From Myxococcales bacterium (lineage in GTDB: Bacteria; Myxococcota_A; Polyangia; Polyangiales; Houyiibacteriaceae), in assembly GCA_019637115.1 (NCBI GenBank), contig JAHBWH010000069.1, positions 1 through 37,968 of the forward strand: a DNA stretch of 37,968 nt. Reading direction: 5' to 3'. Every line of letters begins with the position of its first letter. Positions within the stretch are counted from its first letter, which is position 1. This document shows, piece after piece, positions 2,550 through 36,619 of the stretch. The notes under the pieces are model-generated. The model did no database searches. It saw nothing but the letters and a program-made list of their open reading frames with translations, and had not been told where the DNA came from. The position numbers were made by a program, and so were the translations under genes.

Positions 2550-3197
2550 TCACTCCTCCGGCAGGTCGTCGGCCGCGGCCTCGTCGGCCTCGTCGGCGAC
2601 ATTGGCCTCGGCGACATCGGCGTCGACGCCCTCCGCCTCCGCGCCCTCGACGTCGACGCCCTCGGCCTCGATCTCTCCGGCCTCCGCCTCGACGGCCTCA
2701 TCGGCCCCCGCCGCCGCTGAAGCTTCGACCTCGCCCTCGTCGCTCGCCGCGGGCGTCGCCGCGGCGGCCTCCACGGGGCGAAGCGGCTGGAAGGGACCAT
2801 GCTCGGTGATGAGCGCCGCCGTCCCGTGGGCGTACTGCCCCGTGGCCGGGTCCACCCGCAGGCCGCTGAGGCTCTGTTGCCGGCCGCGGTGCGACGTGTC
2901 GTTCACGGTGTAGCCGAGGAAGATGGCCACGAAGAGGAACGACCCGAGGAAGAAGAGCTTGTTGAAGCCCTTCTCCCAATGAAGGTGCATGTAGAACCCC
3001 ATCACGAGGCCTGCCTTCATCGTGGCGACGACGATCGCCACGAAGAGGTTCCAGTCGCCGAGGCGGATGTTGTAGGCCCCCACCGTGACGAGGGTGAGGA
3101 AGAGCAACGCGCCGAGGATGGCGAGGTTGAACTTGGTCGTGGAGACGTGAGCGTGGACGTGGTAGCCGTCCGCGTGGTCGTCGTGCGAGTGCGCCAT
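2550..3197 (-). CDS. ctaF: Cytochrome c oxidase subunit IV with acidic C-terminal tail
   Basis: Small membrane subunit of the caa3 oxidase, 215 residues. The His-rich N-terminus (MAHSHDDHADGYHVHAHVS) is followed by three predicted helices at about 23-44, 51-73 and 82-99. The segment VVATMKAGLVMGFYMHLHWE is typical of the prokaryotic COX4/CyoD-like family. These proteins are usually about 100-120 residues. The extra length is a tail from about residue 140 made almost only of Ala, Glu, Asp and Val, probably disordered and strongly acidic. It follows ctaE by 10 nt. The family assignment is firm; the tail's role is unknown. Confidence 0.88.
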   Translation of the reverse strand: MAHSHDDHADGYHVHAHVSTTKFNLAILGALLFLTLVTVGAYNIRLGDWNLFVAIVVATMKAGLVMGFYMHLHWEKGFNKLFFLGSFLFVAIFLGYTVNDTSHRGRQQSLSGLRVDPATGQYAHGTAALITEHGPFQPLRPVEAAAATPAASDEGEVEASAAAGADEAVEAEAGEIEAEGVDVEGAEAEGVDADVAEANVADEADEAAADDLPEE

Positions 3198-3207
3198 GGT
3201 CGTCTCG

Positions 3208-12972: not shown

Positions 12973-15900
12973 CCGTGAGCCTCCCCGTCGTGGCCGTGAC
13001 CACTGGCGAGATGCGGGTTCGGGTGTCGAATCTTGGCGAGGAAGGTCGTGCGCGGCTGTGCGCCGACCTCGGCCAGGAGCTTGTATCGGCGGTTCGTGGC
13101 GTCCGCGCGCGAGACGCGGCTGTCGCTGTCGTTCAAGTCACCGAAGACGATCGCGCCCGTCGGGCAGGCGGCCTGGCAGGCGGTGATGATGTCCCCGTCG
13201 CGAAGCGGCCGCTGCTCCCGGCGCGAGGCGAACTTCGCGGCCTGGATGCGCTGGACGCAGTACGAGCACTTCTCGATCACGCCGCGCATCCGAACCGTGA
13301 CGTTCGGGTTGAACTGCATCTTGCGCAGCTCCGGGAACTCCCCGTGGAAGCCCCAGGGGTCGTCGAGGTGATTGTGCCAGTCGAGGTAGTTGAAGCGCCG
13401 GACCTTGTACGGGCAGTTGTTGGCGCAGTAGCGGGTGCCGATGCACCGGTTGTACGCCATGTCGTTGAGGCCCTCGGGGCTGTGCGCCGTCGCGTTGACG
13501 GGACACACGTTCTCGCAGGGCGCCTCCTCGCAGTGCTGGCAGCCGATGGGCTGCATCGCGATCTCGGGGGCGTCGACGTCGTCACCGACGAAGTAGCGGT
13601 CGATGCGGAGCCAGGCCATCTCTCGGCCTCGCTTGACCTCCTGCTTGCCGACGGCCGGGATGTTGTTCTCGGCCTGGCACGCGATCGTGCAGGTGTTGCA
13701 ACCCGTGCACGCGGAGAGGTCGATGACCATCCCCCATTTGTGCAGCGGGCGACCCGTCGCGACCTCGCGCGGCGAGTAGTCGACCTGGGTCCAGAGCGGC
13801 CCGATCGCGTCCATCTCGACCGTGCGGTACGAGGCGAACTCGGGCTCGGCCTTGTACTGCTCGAGGGTCGCGTCGATCGCGATCGGGCGCCCCTCCATGT
13901 AGCCGTGCTCTTGCGTGAAGACGAGGTCGTACTTCGCGCCGGTCTTCTCCGCGCGCGCGCCGCTGGCGAAGCCGAAGCCGTCGACCGTGCGCAGCGGGTA
14001 GACGTCGAAGCCGCCCGCGGTCCAGCTCGGCTCGGGGCCAACGCCCGGCCACGTCTGCTGGTTGCCGTAGCGCCCCGCCGCCGTCCGCCCCCACCCGAGC
14101 ATGAGCGAGATGGAGTAGTCCGCGTGGCCCGGCACCGCGGCGACCGGGAGCTCGACGCGGCGGTCGCCGACGCTGAGGCGGATCATGTCGCCGTTGCGCA
14201 GCCCGAGCTCGTCGCGGGTGCGACGCGACATGATGGCTGCGTTGTCCCAGGCGAGCTTGCTGATCGGGTCGGGCGCCTCGAGCGCCCAGAGGTTGTTCGC
14301 GTGGCGCCCGTCGAAGAGGGCAGCGTCGGTGAGGAACTGGACCTCGAGGTTGTCGCGCCCGAGCGCGGCGCGCTCGGGTGCCTCGCGGACGGCGAGGGCG
14401 ACGGCCTCCGCCTGCACCGACACGGGGAGCGGCGCCTCGGAGGTGCCGGGGACGGCGCCGGCGTGCAAGACGCGCCGCCACTCGCGCTCGAGCGCCGCGG
14501 CGCCGACGCGGTCGCGGAAGGTGCGGCGAACGAGGTGATGGCCCCGCCAGTTGCGCTCACCGGCGACCATCGCGAGCAGCTCGAGCGGGCTGCGCCCGCC
14601 GAAGAGCGGCGCGATGAGCGGCTGCTGGATCGAGATGGTGCCGTCGACCGAGCGCTGGTCACCCCAGGTCTCGAGCTCGTGCGCGAGCGGGACGTGCCAG
14701 GTGCAACGCTGGCTCGTCTCGTCGCGATGCGACGAGAGGTGCACCGTCGTCAGGCCGTCTCGCCCGAGGAGCTCGGCGAAGCCGAGATCCGCGGGAGCGT
14801 CGAAGGCCGGGTTGCCGCCGAGGATGAAGAGGGTGCGGACGCTCCCCAGCTCGGACGCGAGCTCGCGAATGGACGCGGTCGAGACCGGCTGGTCGGGATC
14901 CGAGGGCGAGTGGTAACGGACCGCGCCGCCGACCGCGCCGAGCGCGTGGTTGATGGCGGCCGCGAGCGCGTGCACCCGCGCAGGCTGACGCAACCCGGGC
15001 ACGATGAAGCTGCGACCAGGCTGCGTGCGATTGCTGCGCTCCGGGACGCCCGCGAGGTCGTCCGCCAGCGCGGCGATGAACGCGCTCCAGCCCTCGTCCG
15101 CCCGGGCGCCAGCGACCGCCGCCGAGACCGCGCCGAGCTCCACGCCTCGCTCCCCGAGCGCCTTCGCGAGGCAGCCCAAGAAACGCTCGACGTCCTGCGC
15201 CGCCACCCGGAGGCGATGGTCGGCGGACGCGCCCGTGACCGTGAAGGCGCCCTCGACGCTGTAGAGGCGGAGCATGTGCTGCCGCTCCGGCTGGGTCAGG
15301 CTGCGGCGCGCGCCGTAGCCTCGCCCCGCGCGCACCGAGCCCGGCTCGGTGCCGAGGAAGTCGCTGTCGAGGGCGAGCACGACGTCCGCCTGCGCGACAT
15401 CGAAGACCGGCATCGCGGGCTGGCCGAACGCGAGGCGGGCGCCTTCGCGCTGCGCGTCGTCGTTGATCGGCGCGTAGGTGTGGATCTTCGCCTGCGGGAA
15501 GCGCTGCTGGAGGAGCCGGCGGACACGGAGGACCGAAGGGCTGTTCGTGGGCTGCATGAGCACGCGCAGGCCTGCGCCCCCGTCGCGCTCGTGCGCGCTC
15601 ACGAGCGCGCGGAGCGCCTCGTCGAGCTCCGCGAAGGTCTTGTCGACGAGCGTGTCGCCCTCTCGCTGGGCGGGGCCCTGCGAGCGGTCGGGATCGTAGA
15701 GGTCCCAGATGGCCTGCTGCGCGAGCAGGTCCGTCGCGCCGAGGCTCGAGGGGTGCTCGGGGTTGCCCTCGATTTTCGTCGGCCGCCCCTCGTGGCTCGT
15801 GACGACGAGCCCGAGCGCGTCGTTGCCGCGCTGGGTCACCGTCGCGAAGTGGAGCGGGATGCCCGGCTGCAGGTACTCCGGCCCCTCGACGTAGGGGAGG

Positions 15901-23863: not shown

Positions 23864-25036
23864 ATGCGTCGGAAGAGCCCCGAGACCTTGGCCGTGCATG
23901 GTGGCGAGCCGCGCCGCTACGACTTCGACGCCCTCGCGGCGCCGATCGTCCAGACGGCGACCTATACGTTCCGCGACACCGCCGAGCTCGTGGCCTTCTT
24001 CGAGGGCCGGACGAGCCGCGAGGAAGAGTACGGTCGCTACGGCAACCCCTCCGTCCGGCTCGTCGAGCAGAAGGTGGCCGCGCTCGAGGGGGCCGAGGAC
24101 GGCATCGCCTTCGCGAGCGGGATGGCAGCGGTCACGACGGCGATCCTCGCGCTGGTGAAGAGCGGGTCGCACGTCGTGCTCTTCAGCGACTGCTACCGCC
24201 GCACCCGTCAATTCGTGACGACCTTCCTCGATCGTTTTGGCGTCAGCTCGACCTTGGTGCCCCCCGCCGACCTGGACGCGCTCGAGGCCGCCCTGAGGCC
24301 GGAGACGAAGCTCGTGGTCAGCGAAGCGCCGACGAACCCGTACCAGACGGTCCCGGACCTCCCGCGGCTCGCCCGAATCTGCCGCGAACGTCGGATCAAG
24401 ACGCTGATCGACTCGACCTTCGCGACGCCCGTGAACCTGCGGCCCATCGAGCACGGGATCGATCTCGTCGTGCACTCGGCAACGAAGTACCTCGGGGGCC
24501 ACAACGACGTGCTCGGGGGTGTCCTCGTCGGCAAGCAGGGGCTCGTGTCGATCGTGCGCGATCTGCGGCACGTGCTCGGCGGCGTGCTGGACCCGCACGC
24601 GGCCTACCTGATCCATCGTGGGATCAAGTCGCTCGCGGTGCGGGTGCGGCAGCAGAACGCGTCTGCGCTGGCTATGGCGCAGACGCTCGAAGGGCACCCC
24701 CGCGTGCGCCGCGTCTGGTACCCCGGCCTCGCGAGTCATCCGAACCACGAGGTCGCACGTGAGCTGATGACGGGGTTCGGAGGTGTCGTGACCTTCGAGC
24801 TGGACGCCAGCCTCGAGGAGACGAGCGCCTTCATCGACGCGTGCGAGATCCCGCGCATCGCGCCGAGCCTGGGCGGAGTGGAGTCGCTGATCGAGCAACC
24901 CGCGCTGATGAGCTACTTCGAGCTGACGACGGAGCAGCGCCAAGCCGTCGGGATCTCCGACTCGCTCGTCCGCTACGCGGTCGGCATCGAGGACGCCGAC
25001 GAGCTCATCGCCGACCTGCTGCGCGCCCTCGGCTGA
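23864..25036 (+). CDS. Cystathionine gamma-synthase-like PLP enzyme
   Basis: 390-residue PLP-dependent enzyme of the Cys/Met metabolism family. Lys208 in HSATKYLGGHND is the Schiff-base lysine; Asp183 (LIDSTFATP) contacts the pyridine nitrogen. EYGRYGNPS, SEAPTNPY and PSLGGVESLIEQPA are family motifs. SDCYRRTRQF resembles the plant-type cystathionine gamma-synthase (DCYRKTR) more than methionine gamma-lyase. It probably makes cystathionine from an activated homoserine and cysteine, but a lyase role cannot be excluded. The ATG has no clear ribosome site, and a small dyad (AGGGCT-AAA-AGCCCT, 23847-23861) ends just before it. Confidence 0.88.
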   Translation: MRRKSPETLAVHGGEPRRYDFDALAAPIVQTATYTFRDTAELVAFFEGRTSREEEYGRYGNPSVRLVEQKVAALEGAEDGIAFASGMAAVTTAILALVKSGSHVVLFSDCYRRTRQFVTTFLDRFGVSSTLVPPADLDALEAALRPETKLVVSEAPTNPYQTVPDLPRLARICRERRIKTLIDSTFATPVNLRPIEHGIDLVVHSATKYLGGHNDVLGGVLVGKQGLVSIVRDLRHVLGGVLDPHAAYLIHRGIKSLAVRVRQQNASALAMAQTLEGHPRVRRVWYPGLASHPNHEVARELMTGFGGVVTFELDASLEETSAFIDACEIPRIAPSLGGVESLIEQPALMSYFELTTEQRQAVGISDSLVRYAVGIEDADELIADLLRALG

Positions 25037-25074: not shown

Positions 25075-25141
25075 GCATCGGCTCCACGTACGCTCTCACC
25101 TAGTCGCTGGAGTTGAAACGCGGCCAAGATGCGGCGCGGGA
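25075..25141. repeat. Hairpin repeat module, copy A
   Basis: About 67 bp, running from GCATCGGCTCC to GCGGCGCGGGA, closely similar to copy B at 25252-25319 with one indel. Its centre, CCTAG-TCG-CTGGA (25099-25111) flanked by a TCTCA/TGAAA-type pairing, folds as a hairpin with a G-T wobble and one mismatch. Confidence 0.75.
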
Positions 25142-25146
25142 GGGCT

Positions 25147-25250
25147 GCGCGTCACGTTCGGCGAACCGCGCGTCGCGTTCGGCGAGCCGCGCGTCGGTTC
25201 GGCGAGCCGTGTGTCGCGGTCGGCGAGCTGCGCGTCGCGTTCGGCGAGTG
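25147..25250. repeat. Five 21-bp tandem repeats between the two hairpin modules
   Basis: Units begin at 25147, 25168, 25189, 25209 and 25230; consensus GCGCGTCGCGTTCGGCGAGC plus one base. The third unit is 20 bp. The units are diverged at a few positions each. A 21-bp period keeps reading frame, but the 20-bp unit would break it and no start or ribosome site is convincing, so I treat the stretch as non-coding. Confidence 0.8.
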
Positions 25251-25251
25251 C

Positions 25252-25319
25252 GCATGAGCTTCCATGTACGCTTTCACCCAGTCGCTGGGTTTGAAATGCA
25301 ATCGAGATGCGGCGCGGGA
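25252..25319. repeat. Hairpin repeat module, copy B
   Basis: About 68 bp, from GCATGAGCTTCC to GCGGCGCGGGA. The centre CCCAG-TCG-CTGGG (25277-25289) is a perfect 5-bp stem, extended by TTTCA/TGAAA with a TT bulge. The stretch 25037-25350 contains only these repeats and the possible terminator; no gene is seen in it. Confidence 0.78.
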
Positions 25320-25350
25320 CGGATGGCCCAAGCGCATGCGATGGCGGCGC

Positions 25351-25779
25351 TCAGGGGGTGGGAGCGCGCCACCCGGAGGTGTCGTGGGGGACGCCCTCCC
25401 CTGCCTCGACGAGCACGTCGACCAGCGCCTGGTGCCACGCGGCGTCGAGCCCCTCGGGGACGACGTAGGCGACCACGGTGGCCCTCAGCGCCCGCTGGAG
25501 CGCTGCGGGGGCGCTCGCGAGGCGTGGCCCGAGCGCGCGCACGAGGTCGGTCGCGCGGAGCGTACGCAGCTCGAAGGCGCCTTCCCCCCCCTCGGCGTCG
25601 AAGGTCACGAGGAAACCGAGCGCGCGGGTCCGCACGCGGCATGCGAGCCCCCTCGAGCCGAGCTGCTCGACGAGCACCTCGGGTCCGAGGACGTCGCGCG
25701 GCGAGAAGACCAGCGTCTCGCGGAGAGGCGTCTCGCCGAGAGGCGTCTCGCCGAGAGGCGTCTCGCGGGGAGGCTTCAG
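25351..25779 (-). CDS. Small unknown gene at the end of the nuo operon, possible CTG start
   Basis: The frame is open from just inside nuoI to the stop at 25351 and has strong GC bias at third positions. No ATG, GTG or TTG occurs before GTG 25677. A CTG at 25779 overlaps the nuoI stop as CTGA and is preceded by GAGAAGGG, so translation may start there by coupling (142 residues); from GTG 25677 it would be 108. The N-terminal part is a pentapeptide repeat of GETPL. The rest (VFSPRDVLGPEVLVEQLGSRGLACRVR) looks like a small folded domain that I do not recognise. No membrane helix or metal motif. Confidence 0.6.
   Translation of the reverse strand: MKPPRETPLGETPLGETPLRETLVFSPRDVLGPEVLVEQLGSRGLACRVRTRALGFLVTFDAEGGEGAFELRTLRATDLVRALGPRLASAPAALQRALRATVVAYVVPEGLDAAWHQALVDVLVEAGEGVPHDTSGWRAPTP
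25723..25767. repeat. Three 15-bp tandem repeats coding GETPL
   Basis: Units GAGAGGCGTCTCGCC begin at 25723, 25738 and 25753, with degenerate copies on both sides. Fifteen bases keep frame and encode a pentapeptide on the minus strand in the small gene after nuoI. Each unit is partly palindromic (GAG-GCGT-CTC). Confidence 0.8.
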
Positions 25780-26369
25780 TGACCCTTCTCGCGATCGATG
25801 CCCGGGTGCGTCGGGTCACCCGGCTCATGGCGAGGGTTCGCCGTCAGGAACGTGCCGTCGCGCCCGGGGAGGTTGAGCAGCGTGTCCTTGTCGTAGAGGA
25901 AGTGGTCACGCGCCGTCGAGGGCGGCATGTGCAGCCCCGTGTCCATCCGGATCGCGTCGCACGGGCAGGCTTCGACGCAGTAGCCGCAGTAGATGCAGCG
26001 GAGCTCGTCGATGGTGAAGACCGCCGGGTAACGCTCGTAGCCGTGGCGCGGATCGTCCTCGCCATACTCCGCCGCCTCGATGTGGATGCACTGCGCCGGG
26101 CAGGCGGTGCTGCAGCAGAGGCAAGCGACGCAGCGCGGCGAGCCGTCCGCACGCTGGGTGAGGCGGTGAATGCCCCGGAAGCGCGCGGGGTACTCCCGCT
26201 TCTCCTCCGGATAGCAGACCGTCGCGATCTCCTTCTTCTCCTCGGGACCGAAGGTGTTCTTGAAGAACCGCTTCGAGGTGACGATGAGGCCCTTCGCGAT
26301 CTCGGGCACGTACATCTGCTCGAGCGCGGTGCGCTTCTTCTTCTCGATGACCTTGACGCCGATGGCCAT
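25776..26369 (-). CDS. nuoI: NADH-quinone oxidoreductase subunit I
   Basis: Fe-S subunit of complex I that carries clusters N6a and N6b in the peripheral arm; 197 residues. Two 4Fe-4S motifs are complete: CVACLCCSTACP (from Cys80) and CIYCGYCVEACP (from Cys125). The N-terminal EIAKGLIVTSKRFFKNTF is the amphipathic segment that lies against the membrane, and EKREYPARFRGIHRL is typical. The ATG at 26369 lies 11 nt after nuoH. The frame upstream is shadow. Confidence 0.96.
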   Translation of the reverse strand: MAIGVKVIEKKKRTALEQMYVPEIAKGLIVTSKRFFKNTFGPEEKKEIATVCYPEEKREYPARFRGIHRLTQRADGSPRCVACLCCSTACPAQCIHIEAAEYGEDDPRHGYERYPAVFTIDELRCIYCGYCVEACPCDAIRMDTGLHMPPSTARDHFLYDKDTLLNLPGRDGTFLTANPRHEPGDPTHPGIDREKGH

Positions 26370-26380
26370 GTCGTTGCCTC

Positions 26381-27817
26381 TCAGGTCCAGAGCAGGACGA
26401 TGATGCCCGTCAGGAGGATGTTGGCGATGGAGAGCGGGAGCAGGCCCTTCCAGCAGACCTTCATGATCTGGTCGTAGCGGAAGCGCGGGAGGGTCCAGCG
26501 GATCATCAGCTGGAGCCACATCAGGATCGCGATCTTCAGGAGGAAGGCGATGACCTGGATGACGATGACCGCCCAGTGCTGGAGCGCGATCGTGTCCTGG
26601 ATGACCCAATCGGTCATCGGGATGACGAGCTCCCACGTCCCCGGCAGGTCGAAGCCGCTTCGGTAGAGGAAGGGAACGTCCCAGCCGCCGAAGAAGAGCA
26701 CCGTGGCGAGCGCACCGAGCACGACGACCTCCACGAACTCACCCGCGAAGAACATGCCGAACTTCATGCCCGAGTATTCGGTGAGGTAGCCACCGACGAG
26801 CTCGCTCTCGCCCTCTGGCAGGTCGAAGGGGACGCGCTTGGTCTCCGCGATCGCGGCGAAGAGGTAGAGCACGCACGCGATCGTGAGCGGTGGGATGAAG
26901 ATTCCCCAGATCCCCGCCTCGTGCTGCCACATGACGATCTCCTCGAGCCGGAGGCTGTCGTAGATCATGAAGCAGGGGACGATGGTCAGGCCGAGCGCGA
27001 CCTCGTAGGAGACCATCTGGCTCGCGGCGCGCAGACCGCCCATCAGCGAGTATTTGTTGTCGGAGGAGTAACCGCCGATGGCGGCGCCGACGACGCCGGT
27101 GCCGGCGATGGCGAAAATGAAGAGGATGCCGATGTCGAGCGACGCGATCTGCATCGGAATCGCTGTCGCCACGCCGCCACTCCCGTCGCACGCCATGACC
27201 GTCGCCACGTCGCGCGGGACGACGTCGGTCGCGCACTCGAGAAAGAGCGTGTCGGCGAAGGGCACGACCGCGAACGCCGCGATCGCCGTCACCATCGTCA
27301 GGATCGGCGCGATGCTGAAGAGGAGCTTGTCCGCTTTCGGCGGCACGAAGTCCTCTTTGAAGATCATCTTGATGGCATCGGCGAGCGGGTGAAGCAGACC
27401 GAGGAGCGCGATCTTGCCGCCGCTCTCGACGATACCTCCGTGGACCTTGTGGCCCACGCGCGCCAGCACGCCGAGGATGCCGAAGCCCACGACCGCCAGG
27501 TAGTAGGTCTTCGCCTCTTGGCCGAAGAGCGTCTCGCGCGACGAGAGCAGGAGGATGACGAGCGCCACGATCGCGAGACCCGCCGCGAAGAAGGACCCGA
27601 AGATGCCAGCCTCGAGCGGCTTGAGGGTCAACCTCAGGCCCTCGACCACGCTCCGGGGCAACGGGATGTGCGCGCGGTGCGGGCCGACGCGGTCCTGCAT
27701 CATCGCGCTCTGGCGGCGCTCGGCCCAGAGGAGGACCGGGGCGAAGGCGCCGACCGCGACGATGACCACGAAGAGGATCTTCGCGATGGCGAGGAGGATC
27801 TGGGTGAAGAGGTCCAT
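26381..27817 (-). CDS. nuoH: NADH-quinone oxidoreductase subunit H, enlarged
   Basis: Membrane subunit at the quinone-binding interface of complex I. Hallmarks: WAERRQSAMMQDRVGPHRAH, LADAIKMIFKED, SSDNKYSLMGGLRAASQMVSYEV, PFDLPEGESELVGGYLTEYSGMKFG and LPRFRYDQIMKVCWKGLLPL. The protein is 478 residues against about 325-350 in well-known NuoH. The extra length is mainly an insertion at about residues 51-141, between the GPHR loop and LADAIK, with two predicted helices (about 72-92 and 104-120). A smaller loop at about 190-224 holds Cys195 and Cys210. It starts 5 nt after nuoG. Confidence 0.94.
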   Translation of the reverse strand: MDLFTQILLAIAKILFVVIVAVGAFAPVLLWAERRQSAMMQDRVGPHRAHIPLPRSVVEGLRLTLKPLEAGIFGSFFAAGLAIVALVILLLSSRETLFGQEAKTYYLAVVGFGILGVLARVGHKVHGGIVESGGKIALLGLLHPLADAIKMIFKEDFVPPKADKLLFSIAPILTMVTAIAAFAVVPFADTLFLECATDVVPRDVATVMACDGSGGVATAIPMQIASLDIGILFIFAIAGTGVVGAAIGGYSSDNKYSLMGGLRAASQMVSYEVALGLTIVPCFMIYDSLRLEEIVMWQHEAGIWGIFIPPLTIACVLYLFAAIAETKRVPFDLPEGESELVGGYLTEYSGMKFGMFFAGEFVEVVVLGALATVLFFGGWDVPFLYRSGFDLPGTWELVIPMTDWVIQDTIALQHWAVIVIQVIAFLLKIAILMWLQLMIRWTLPRFRYDQIMKVCWKGLLPLSIANILLTGIIVLLWT

Positions 27818-31974: not shown

Positions 31975-32321
31975 TCGAGGGCTCCCTTCTTCCACTCGTA
32001 GACGAGGGTGATGGCCAGCACGGCGAGGAAGATCACCATCGCGACGAAGCCCACCCAACCGAGATCTCGGAAGAGGGCCGCCCACGGGTAGATGAACGCC
32101 GCTTCGATGTCGAAGACGACGAAGGAGATCGCCGTCAGGTAGAACTTCACGCTCTGGCGGAGGTGGCTCGCGCCCGTGGTGTTCGAGCCCGACTCGTAGG
32201 GCAAGAGCTTCTCGGGCGTGGGCTTCTTGGGGCCGGCGAGCGAGGTCGCCGTGAACATACCGAGGGCCACCAGGGTGGCCACCAGCAGCATCAAAAAGAC
32301 GGGGAGGTAAGCGCTGAGCAT
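31962..32321 (-). CDS. nuoA: NADH-quinone oxidoreductase subunit A
   Basis: Small membrane subunit, 119 residues, three helices. PYESGSNTTGASHLRQSVKFYLTAISFVVFDIEAAFIYPWA is the family signature; where many NuoA have a Cys in the loop (PYECG), this one has Ser. First gene of the nuo operon, with a promoter upstream at 32397-32425. Confidence 0.93.
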   Translation of the reverse strand: MLSAYLPVFLMLLVATLVALGMFTATSLAGPKKPTPEKLLPYESGSNTTGASHLRQSVKFYLTAISFVVFDIEAAFIYPWAALFRDLGWVGFVAMVIFLAVLAITLVYEWKKGALEWER

Positions 32322-32360
32322 CGGGCGGCGGGCTCCAGGCTGCCGTGGCAGGGCGAATTC

Positions 32361-32394
32361 CTCTGAATTCGCGACAATCTGCCGAGATTCAGAG
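32361..32394. promoter_or_regulatory. Dyad at the predicted nuo transcription start
   Basis: CTCTGAAT (32361-32368) and ATTCAGAG (32387-32394) are perfect complements 18 nt apart. The right arm begins 2 bp from the predicted -10 box, so the dyad spans the predicted start site. It could be a repressor operator or a 5' leader hairpin. Confidence 0.5.
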
Positions 32395-32396
32395 CG

Positions 32397-32425
32397 CTTG
32401 TAGCGTCGCGCCGAGGTCCCGTCAA
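32397..32425 (-). promoter_or_regulatory. Sigma70-type promoter of the nuo operon
   Basis: On the minus strand TTGACG (32425-32420), a 17-nt spacer and TACAAG (32402-32397). The leader to the nuoA ATG would be about 70 nt. Confidence 0.65.
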
Positions 32426-32560
32426 TCGAGTCCGTTCGGGAGACGCGCGTCGAGCGCCGGCGGAGTGGTGGTGCGCGGGCGACTGTGCGATGGTCCGCCG
32501 CCGACGGGGAGCGCCCAGCGCCCCGCGTGACGACGTGAGAACGACGTGAGGGGAGAGACG

Positions 32561-34509: not shown

Positions 34510-36486
34510 ATGAAGGACGGTGCGAGCGAACCCAGAGGGGCGGTGCCGACGCCCTCCCCCGAGACGGTGAGTTGCCCTCACTGCTCGAGCGCACACCCGC
34601 GCACGTGGTCGCATTGCCCGACGACCGGAAAGCCGCTGACCACCGGGCCGGCGCTCGTCGGCCGCGTCATCGCGGGGCGCTATCGCATCCGCGGCCTGCT
34701 CGGCGAGGGCGGCATGGGGGCGGTCTACGAGGCAGAGCACCTCGCCGTCGGCCGCCGCGTCGCGCTCAAGCGCCTCCACCCCGAGCTTGCGACGGACGCG
34801 AGCTCGGTCAGCCGCTTCCAGCGGGAGGCGCGCGCGGCGGGCGCGACGGGTCACGAGCACGTGGTGGACGTGCTCGATCTCGGCTTCGCCGAGGATGGCG
34901 CGCCCTACCTGGTCATGGAGCTCCTCGCGGGAGAGAGCCTCGCGCAGCGGCTCGCGCGGCAGCGGCTCCTCCCCTCGGACCGCGCCGCGAGCATCGCCGG
35001 CCAGGTGCTCTCCGCCCTCGAGGCGGTCCACGCGCTCGACGTCATCCACCGCGACCTCAAGCCGGACAACATCTTCCTCACGCGACGAGGCGGGCGCAGC
35101 GACTACGTGAAGGTCCTCGACTTCGGTGTTTCGAAGATGGCCGCCGACAGCAAGGATCCGAAGCTCACGCGCACGGGCATGATGGTCGGCACGCCGCATT
35201 ACATGTCGCCAGAGCAGGCGCGCGGCGTCCGCCAGCTCGACCATCGCGTCGACCTCTACGCGGTCGGGGTAATCCTCTTCGAGTGCTTGGCCGGCCAGCT
35301 CCCGTTCCACGCCGACAACTATCACGCCCTCCTGCAGTCGATCTTGGCCCGCGAGGCCCCGTCGCTCGTGACCTTGGTGCCGACGATCGACCCGAAGCTC
35401 GCCGCCGTCGTCGCCCGCGCGCTCGCCAAACGACCCGAGGACCGATACCCGGACGCGCGGGCGATGTGGGAGGCCCTCGTGCCTTTCGGCGCGCCCCAGC
35501 TCGCGGAGATTCGCAGCTCCCATCCGCCCCCCTCGGCGGGCGCGCCTCGGCCTGGCGCCGCGACCGAGAGCCTCGCGATGGGCCGCATGCCGACGAGCCC
35601 GATGGAGGCGTCGATGCTGGCCTCGAAGCTGGAGGAGGCCCGCCCCGCCTTCGGCATCGCGCGCCCCCGCGCGGCGAGCGCGCTCGGCGGCGGGCTGTCC
35701 CCCGTGACGCTCGCGACGCCCGCGCCGCTCGACCCGGCCCCGACGCCCCCGACCTGGTCCACCCGCTCCGACACGCGGCGCTTCGTCGCCCAGAGCGCCG
35801 ACTGGTCGGACTCGCGGGCCGACCTGCTGACCTTCGACGCTTCGCGCCTGCGGAGCACCGACGCCCCACGCGAGAGGTCGACCCCGACCGGGCGACGCTT
35901 CACCGCCCGCCCCGACGCGCCGATCGTGGACGAGGCGCCGCCGAGCCCGGGACGACTCAAGGGCGCGCTCCTGCTCGGGGTGCTGGGCTCGCTCCGCGCC
36001 AAGCACGGCGCCAACGCCGTCGAGGCCGTGCTGGCCTCGCTGGGCGACGACCGGCGCACCTTCGGCAGCGGCCTCGTGCCGGTCGCGTGGGTCGACGATC
36101 GACCCGCGCGACGCTTGCTCGAGACGATCGAGCGCCAGCTCGGGGGCGCGGACGGCCGCGCTTGCCGGACGTTCGGGCGCGAGCTGGCCAAGCGCGAGCT
36201 ACCGAGGACCCACCGGCTGCTCCTCCGATCGGCGCCCGACACCGCCATCGCGAAGCTCCCCGTGATCTGGCGCTCCTACGCGGAGGGGTCCCAGATCCAG
36301 CTCGACCCCAGCGAGACGGGCTCGGTGCGGATCGACGTCGAGGCGGGCCCGCAGGGGTGGCATTTCCTTCACGTCATGGCCGGCGTGGTCGAGGGCTTCC
36401 TCGAGCTCTGCGGCGCGCGCGAGGTGAAGGTCTCGGTGGTCGAGCGCAGCTCGGAGCGCGCGTCCCTCTCGGTGCGCTGGCGCTAG
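34510..36486 (+). CDS. Hanks-type Ser/Thr kinase with N-terminal zinc-ribbon-like motif
   Basis: 658 residues. The N-terminus has CPHC and HCP (Cys22, Cys25, Cys36) that resemble a short zinc ribbon. The kinase domain (about 52-320) is complete: GEGGMGAVYEA, Lys87, HRDLKPDNIFL with Asp182, DFG (204-206) and GTPHYMSPEQARG. A Pro/Ala-rich linker leads to a C-terminal domain (about 475-658, from GRLKGALLLGVLGSLRAKHG to SLSVRWR) that resembles the myxobacterial DUF2378/TIGR02265-like domains; this match is tentative. No membrane helix is visible. ATG 34510 was chosen; GTG 34504 two codons upstream is equally possible. It lies 86 bp after the symporter gene. Confidence 0.88.
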   Translation: MKDGASEPRGAVPTPSPETVSCPHCSSAHPRTWSHCPTTGKPLTTGPALVGRVIAGRYRIRGLLGEGGMGAVYEAEHLAVGRRVALKRLHPELATDASSVSRFQREARAAGATGHEHVVDVLDLGFAEDGAPYLVMELLAGESLAQRLARQRLLPSDRAASIAGQVLSALEAVHALDVIHRDLKPDNIFLTRRGGRSDYVKVLDFGVSKMAADSKDPKLTRTGMMVGTPHYMSPEQARGVRQLDHRVDLYAVGVILFECLAGQLPFHADNYHALLQSILAREAPSLVTLVPTIDPKLAAVVARALAKRPEDRYPDARAMWEALVPFGAPQLAEIRSSHPPPSAGAPRPGAATESLAMGRMPTSPMEASMLASKLEEARPAFGIARPRAASALGGGLSPVTLATPAPLDPAPTPPTWSTRSDTRRFVAQSADWSDSRADLLTFDASRLRSTDAPRERSTPTGRRFTARPDAPIVDEAPPSPGRLKGALLLGVLGSLRAKHGANAVEAVLASLGDDRRTFGSGLVPVAWVDDRPARRLLETIERQLGGADGRACRTFGRELAKRELPRTHRLLLRSAPDTAIAKLPVIWRSYAEGSQIQLDPSETGSVRIDVEAGPQGWHFLHVMAGVVEGFLELCGAREVKVSVVERSSERASLSVRWR

Positions 36487-36576
36487 CGCTGGGCCGCTAG
36501 CGCTGAGCCGCTAGCGCTGAGCCGCTGGCGCTGAACCGCGCGCTGGGCCGCTAGCGCTCAGTCGCTAGCGCTCGCC
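36481..36576. repeat. Array of 14-bp repeats with palindromic core CGCTAGCG
   Basis: Units begin at 36481, 36495, 36509, 36523, a 12-bp degenerate unit at 36537, then 36549 and 36563. The consensus is CGCTAGCGCTGAGC. Five units contain the perfect palindrome CGCTAGCG. The first unit contains the stop codon (TAG) of the kinase gene and the array ends about 45 bp before the aminopeptidase start. Confidence 0.85.
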
Positions 36577-36619
36577 CGCTCGCTCGAACTTCCGGGCGCG
36601 CGTGATAGCCTGCGCGCGC

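Follow-up and report, generated by a model that had tools for sequence, protein, structure and literature searches.

The repeat block that lies between two convergent open reading frames (ORFs) in the window, a stretch of 37,968 nucleotides from a Myxococcales bacterium, very probably consists of two remnants, both old and inactive, from a single family of IS66-type insertion sequences. Specifically, its two modules are homologous to the right end of these elements, and the 21-bp tandem array between them is homologous to the heptad codons of their transposase. Since the modules are element ends and the array is a piece of a transposase, the block amounts to commonplace genome debris; it is neither a novel RNA nor a novel repeat system.

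The block occupies positions 25083-25325 within a gap of 314 bp, flanked on the left by a PLP-enzyme-like ORF (+ strand, 23864-25036) and on the right by a - strand ORF (25351-25677), which is followed by a NuoI-like ferredoxin ORF (25776-26636). The initial annotation had described two direct modules around a 21-bp array, placed between convergent genes, and both the architecture and the position are borne out: the modules (25083-25147 and 25261-25325, 65 nt) have the same orientation, a spacing of 178 bp and 82% identity, while Tandem Repeats Finder places an array of 4.9 units with 86% matches at 25147-25248, one of the units being 20 bp long instead of 21. It is doubtful that this is the only gap of more than 300 bp in the window, as had also been stated; a rough tiling of ORFs based on GC3, with no gene caller behind it, suggests at least two more (approximately 2801-3207 and 32086-32545). 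Other tandem repeats are found in the window, namely four near-perfect 15-bp units (GCGTCTCGCCGAGAG) at 25713-25774, immediately past the 3' end of the NuoI-like ORF, which is on the - strand, and four 28-bp units (GCGCTGAGCCGCTAGCGCTGGGCCGCTA) at 36474-36580, shortly ahead of a long ORF on the + strand at 36602.

The module is not confined to the window. When the organism's own genome was searched (8.88 Mb in 434 contigs, referred to here by C-numbers), module B matched 22 other places at E<=0.01, copy A being among them at 2.4e-11, and a longer consensus of 178 nt, extending into a near-palindrome, matched about 40 distinct places, the best of them 97% identical over the full length. These counts are lower bounds, because scoring was limited to the best 40 first-look candidates and because contig ends hold several of the copies; for the latter reason, the family probably contributes to the fragmentation of this assembly. 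The genome-wide count that the initial annotation had proposed thus bears out its reading of the block as a dispersed, MITE-like repeat, of which the genome has many copies; the refuting outcome that it had named, a module restricted to this one place, did not occur. Beyond this genome, the module consensus was not found in 36 relatives, where weak and short matches were restricted to the generic CGCGCGAAGCGCGCG palindrome, and a degenerate module pattern had no match in 84,980 species genomes, a collection from which records of the genome itself or of very near ones were possibly excluded. Similarly, no relative of the transposase pieces was found in the 84,980-genome collection, in the 36 relatives or in plasmids.

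The termini of the family are those of a transposable element. The terminal 14-mer GTACGCGTTCACCC occurs at 52 genomic sites with at most one mismatch, as compared to 3 for a reversed control, and the termini mostly begin with GTAC, with some GTAAGCG and some GTATGCG, the perfect match between inverted ends spanning only about 15 bp, where IS66 ends have 20-30 bp. Elements bounded by inverted pairs are present in C22 (663 bp), C112 (75 bp), C113 (76 bp) and C388 (328 bp). Just outside the ends, 8-bp direct repeats are perfect in the first three (GGAAAGGC, GTGTCCCC and GAGACGTC, respectively), and in C388 the flanking repeat matches at 7/8 positions. Three perfect duplications and one of 7/8 were thus seen among nine inverted pairs, and perfect repeats at offsets of 1-3 bases were absent from the same nine; the 8-bp flanking repeats are transposition scars. 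The derivative in C22 retains the near-palindrome, both ends and the target duplication. The left end of the element carries strong palindromes of its own (CCTCCTCTGGGCCGCGCGCGGCGCGCGGCCCAGAGGAGG), observed in C27 (1501-1830 of the locus taken from it) and also in C408, C409 and C420, and therefore both ends are palindrome-rich.

The connection to a transposase comes from two contigs in which the IS66 DDE domain (Pfam DDE_Tnp_IS66, PF03050) scores above the cut-off, C27 (two pieces) and C118. The C27 pieces lie inside an element whose start is the terminus of this family, and in C118 a transposase piece is followed by a near-palindrome of about 117 bp and then by the module in reverse orientation; from these arrangements it follows that the module constitutes the right-hand end of an IS66-type element, taken from the tip inward. 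Another dispersed repeat, in inverted orientation at 1532-1621 and 1656-1693 of the window, is 89% identical to a C118 repeat (approximately 2701-2794) beside the transposase piece. The C27 transposase begins about 283 bp past the left tip with LETRVRDLEAKLADRDAQLAERDAQLAEQAAKLAEQAAQLEKLQKQLAKLTGQLKRNSSNS, a heptad coiled coil, after which comes an IS66-like motif. Each heptad of the coiled coil corresponds to 21 bp (codons for L-A-E-R-D-A-Q), and the array is antisense to these codons.

Indeed, the window array is 91.5% identical over 71 bp to heptad codons in C155 (E 3.8e-22) and is similar to those in C27 and C22. Its - strand frames (LAERDAQLADRDTRLAE and DARLAERDARFAERDAQ) give the reading LAERDAQ-LADRDTR-LAE, then a one-base frameshift, then DAR-LAERDAR-FAERDAQ. 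The number of heptads varies among copies (C27, C155, C408 and the window), and the coiled-coil piece on its own has no IS66 Pfam model above the cut-off, the best IS66-like hint being DUF6444 (E 0.002). The initial annotation had considered the block a repeat or an RNA rather than a gene, which is half wrong: the array is a decayed transposase coding fragment on the - strand. The C27 transposase gene is also interrupted at five places (14543-14621, 14780-14856, 15145-15221, 15648-15725 and 15733-15810) by a GC-rich palindromic repeat of 77 bp (GAGGGGCTTCGCCCCTCCCCC...GACGCACGAGCTC), further copies of which are located at C155:10422-10498, C22:25686-25762, C146:38381 and C301:18606. This repeat keeps the frame open at some insertion places (peptide RGASPLP..ALTR.L), has 7/11 of its strong genomic copies within IS66 elements and is reminiscent of protein-coding palindromic repeats such as the RPEs of Rickettsia.

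With these copies at hand, the parts of the block can be assigned. Module A is an IS66-type right end on the - strand (25088..25147), with its tip at 25088, running inward to 25147, and with the transposase sense on the - strand. Against the right-end copies of C118, C155 and C22 it shows 82-84% identity, it matches the family consensus at E 2.9e-12, and its terminal inverted repeat (25088..25100, +, GTACGCTCTCACC) has two mismatches to GTACGCGTTCACC. The heptad-codon remnant of the N-terminal coiled coil, with one frameshift, extends over 25144..25248 (-), and a spacer of 17 bp (25249..25265), in which no homology to the element was detected, separates it from module B (25266..25329, -). Module B is another right end from this family, with its tip at 25266 (GTACGCTTTCACCC), one mismatch in the terminus and 81-83% identity to those same three copies. 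Module A joins the array directly at approximately 25147, the point at which the near-palindrome and the transposase body are found in fuller copies; A and the array together thus represent an internally deleted copy. Both modules are about 85% identical to the consensus, and hence both remnants look old. In the window, only the right ends and the array match the element, with neither a left end nor a visible target duplication.

An intact copy was not found in the fragmented assembly of the genome, and the full structure was therefore pieced together from several copies. Such an element would begin with a GTACGCGTTCACCC inverted terminal repeat, followed by a left region rich in palindromes and then by one transposase gene, whose product would have a heptad coiled coil at the N-terminus, a region like a zinc finger and a DDE domain; a near-palindrome of about 117 bp and a right end of about 60 bp would complete it. 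Presumably, the transposase would bind these ends and, on inserting a copy, duplicate 8 bp of the target. One copy in the window would then have lost its transposase body, bringing right end A next to the coiled-coil codons that form the array, and would have lost its left end too, with right end B, the second one, located just beyond; the order of these deletions is conjectural.

Modules A and B may derive from two insertions or from one. It is a real, if less favored, possibility that a single IS66 remnant had its right end, with some flank, duplicated locally in tandem: the upstream flanks of A and B both contain GTACGCT and CGCTGG and are weakly alike (7/2000 random 30-mers score as high, and the likeness is weaker for shorter stretches). 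However, the distance between A and B (approximately 0.22) makes them no closer to each other than either is to intact copies elsewhere (0.17-0.19), in a comparison of pairwise distances over about 60 columns, which are too few for a tree, and module B has no second array beside it. It is unlikely that the block belongs to an IS66-derived MITE family, restricted to this lineage, that has been under selection for its long near-palindromic right end and its variable heptad number (as extra transposase binding sites and for multimerisation), with dispersed ends that are still active sites of mobilisation or rearrangement in this genome.

A structured RNA, either a small RNA or a bidirectional terminator formed by two hairpin modules, would suit the location between convergent ORFs, and module B indeed folds better than its shuffles (z -2.65), through an imperfect subterminal palindrome at 25272..25299 (hairpin TTTCACCCAG-TCG-CTGGGTTTGAAA, DNA fold -6.9 kcal/mol). 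The two modules had been thought to fold a similar hairpin, but this applies to B alone, module A having a z of +1.18, with 187/200 shuffles folding at least as well; the fold of the family consensus does not stand out either (z -1.0). The covariance analysis suggested by the initial annotation gave a score of 0.079 against 0.070 for shuffled alignments (130/500 as high), no measure for the proposed pairs across 17 copies was better than shuffles, and the RNAalifold consensus proposed a different helix with no compensatory changes. Rfam had no match to the block, its one sub-threshold match (E 0.14) being in the upstream gene and outside the block. With a hairpin in B only and no covariation, and with modules that are transposon ends, the structured-RNA reading is unsupported and highly improbable. 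The palindrome of module B may be a transposase-binding feature. A REP/BIME array mobilised by a RAYT (Y1) transposase resembles this family in that copies are dispersed, palindromic and extragenic, but a profile search of the genome for Y1_Tnp (PF01797) found none, and the terminal inverted repeats and 8-bp target duplications seen here are not made by REPs; the REP-like part of the initial annotation was accordingly rejected and deserves practically no credence.

The IS66-type assignment, by comparison, agrees with the known family in transposase and target duplications. IS66 elements are described with inverted terminal repeats that begin with GTAAGCG, and with 8-bp direct repeats (PMC11946415; the latter also in PMC3281130), and the ISBst12 group of IS66 has a single transposase ORF (PMC12898284). 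The present family shares the DDE_Tnp_IS66 domain, the 8-bp target duplications and inverted ends of the form GTA.GCG, and differs in the fourth terminal base (GTAC in most copies instead of GTAA), in the long near-palindrome before the right end and in the interruption of transposase copies by the 77-bp repeat. In the non-intact C27 element, the stretch of about 283 bp from the left tip to the transposase start shows no sign of tnpA or tnpB and leaves little room for other genes, which may fit the ISBst12-like group. The copies in C22, C112, C113 and C388 are like IS-derived MITEs in their size, in carrying an inverted repeat at either end along with target duplications and in lacking an intact transposase, but they are heterogeneous deletion derivatives and no uniform MITE, and the window copies have one end each. 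This is thus an unnamed IS66-type family with MITE-like derivatives, as set against the published IS66 signature. A puzzling repeat block is in this way explained as mobile-element debris of a familiar kind, and it illustrates that the codons of a coiled coil can be mistaken for a tandem repeat in intergenic DNA.
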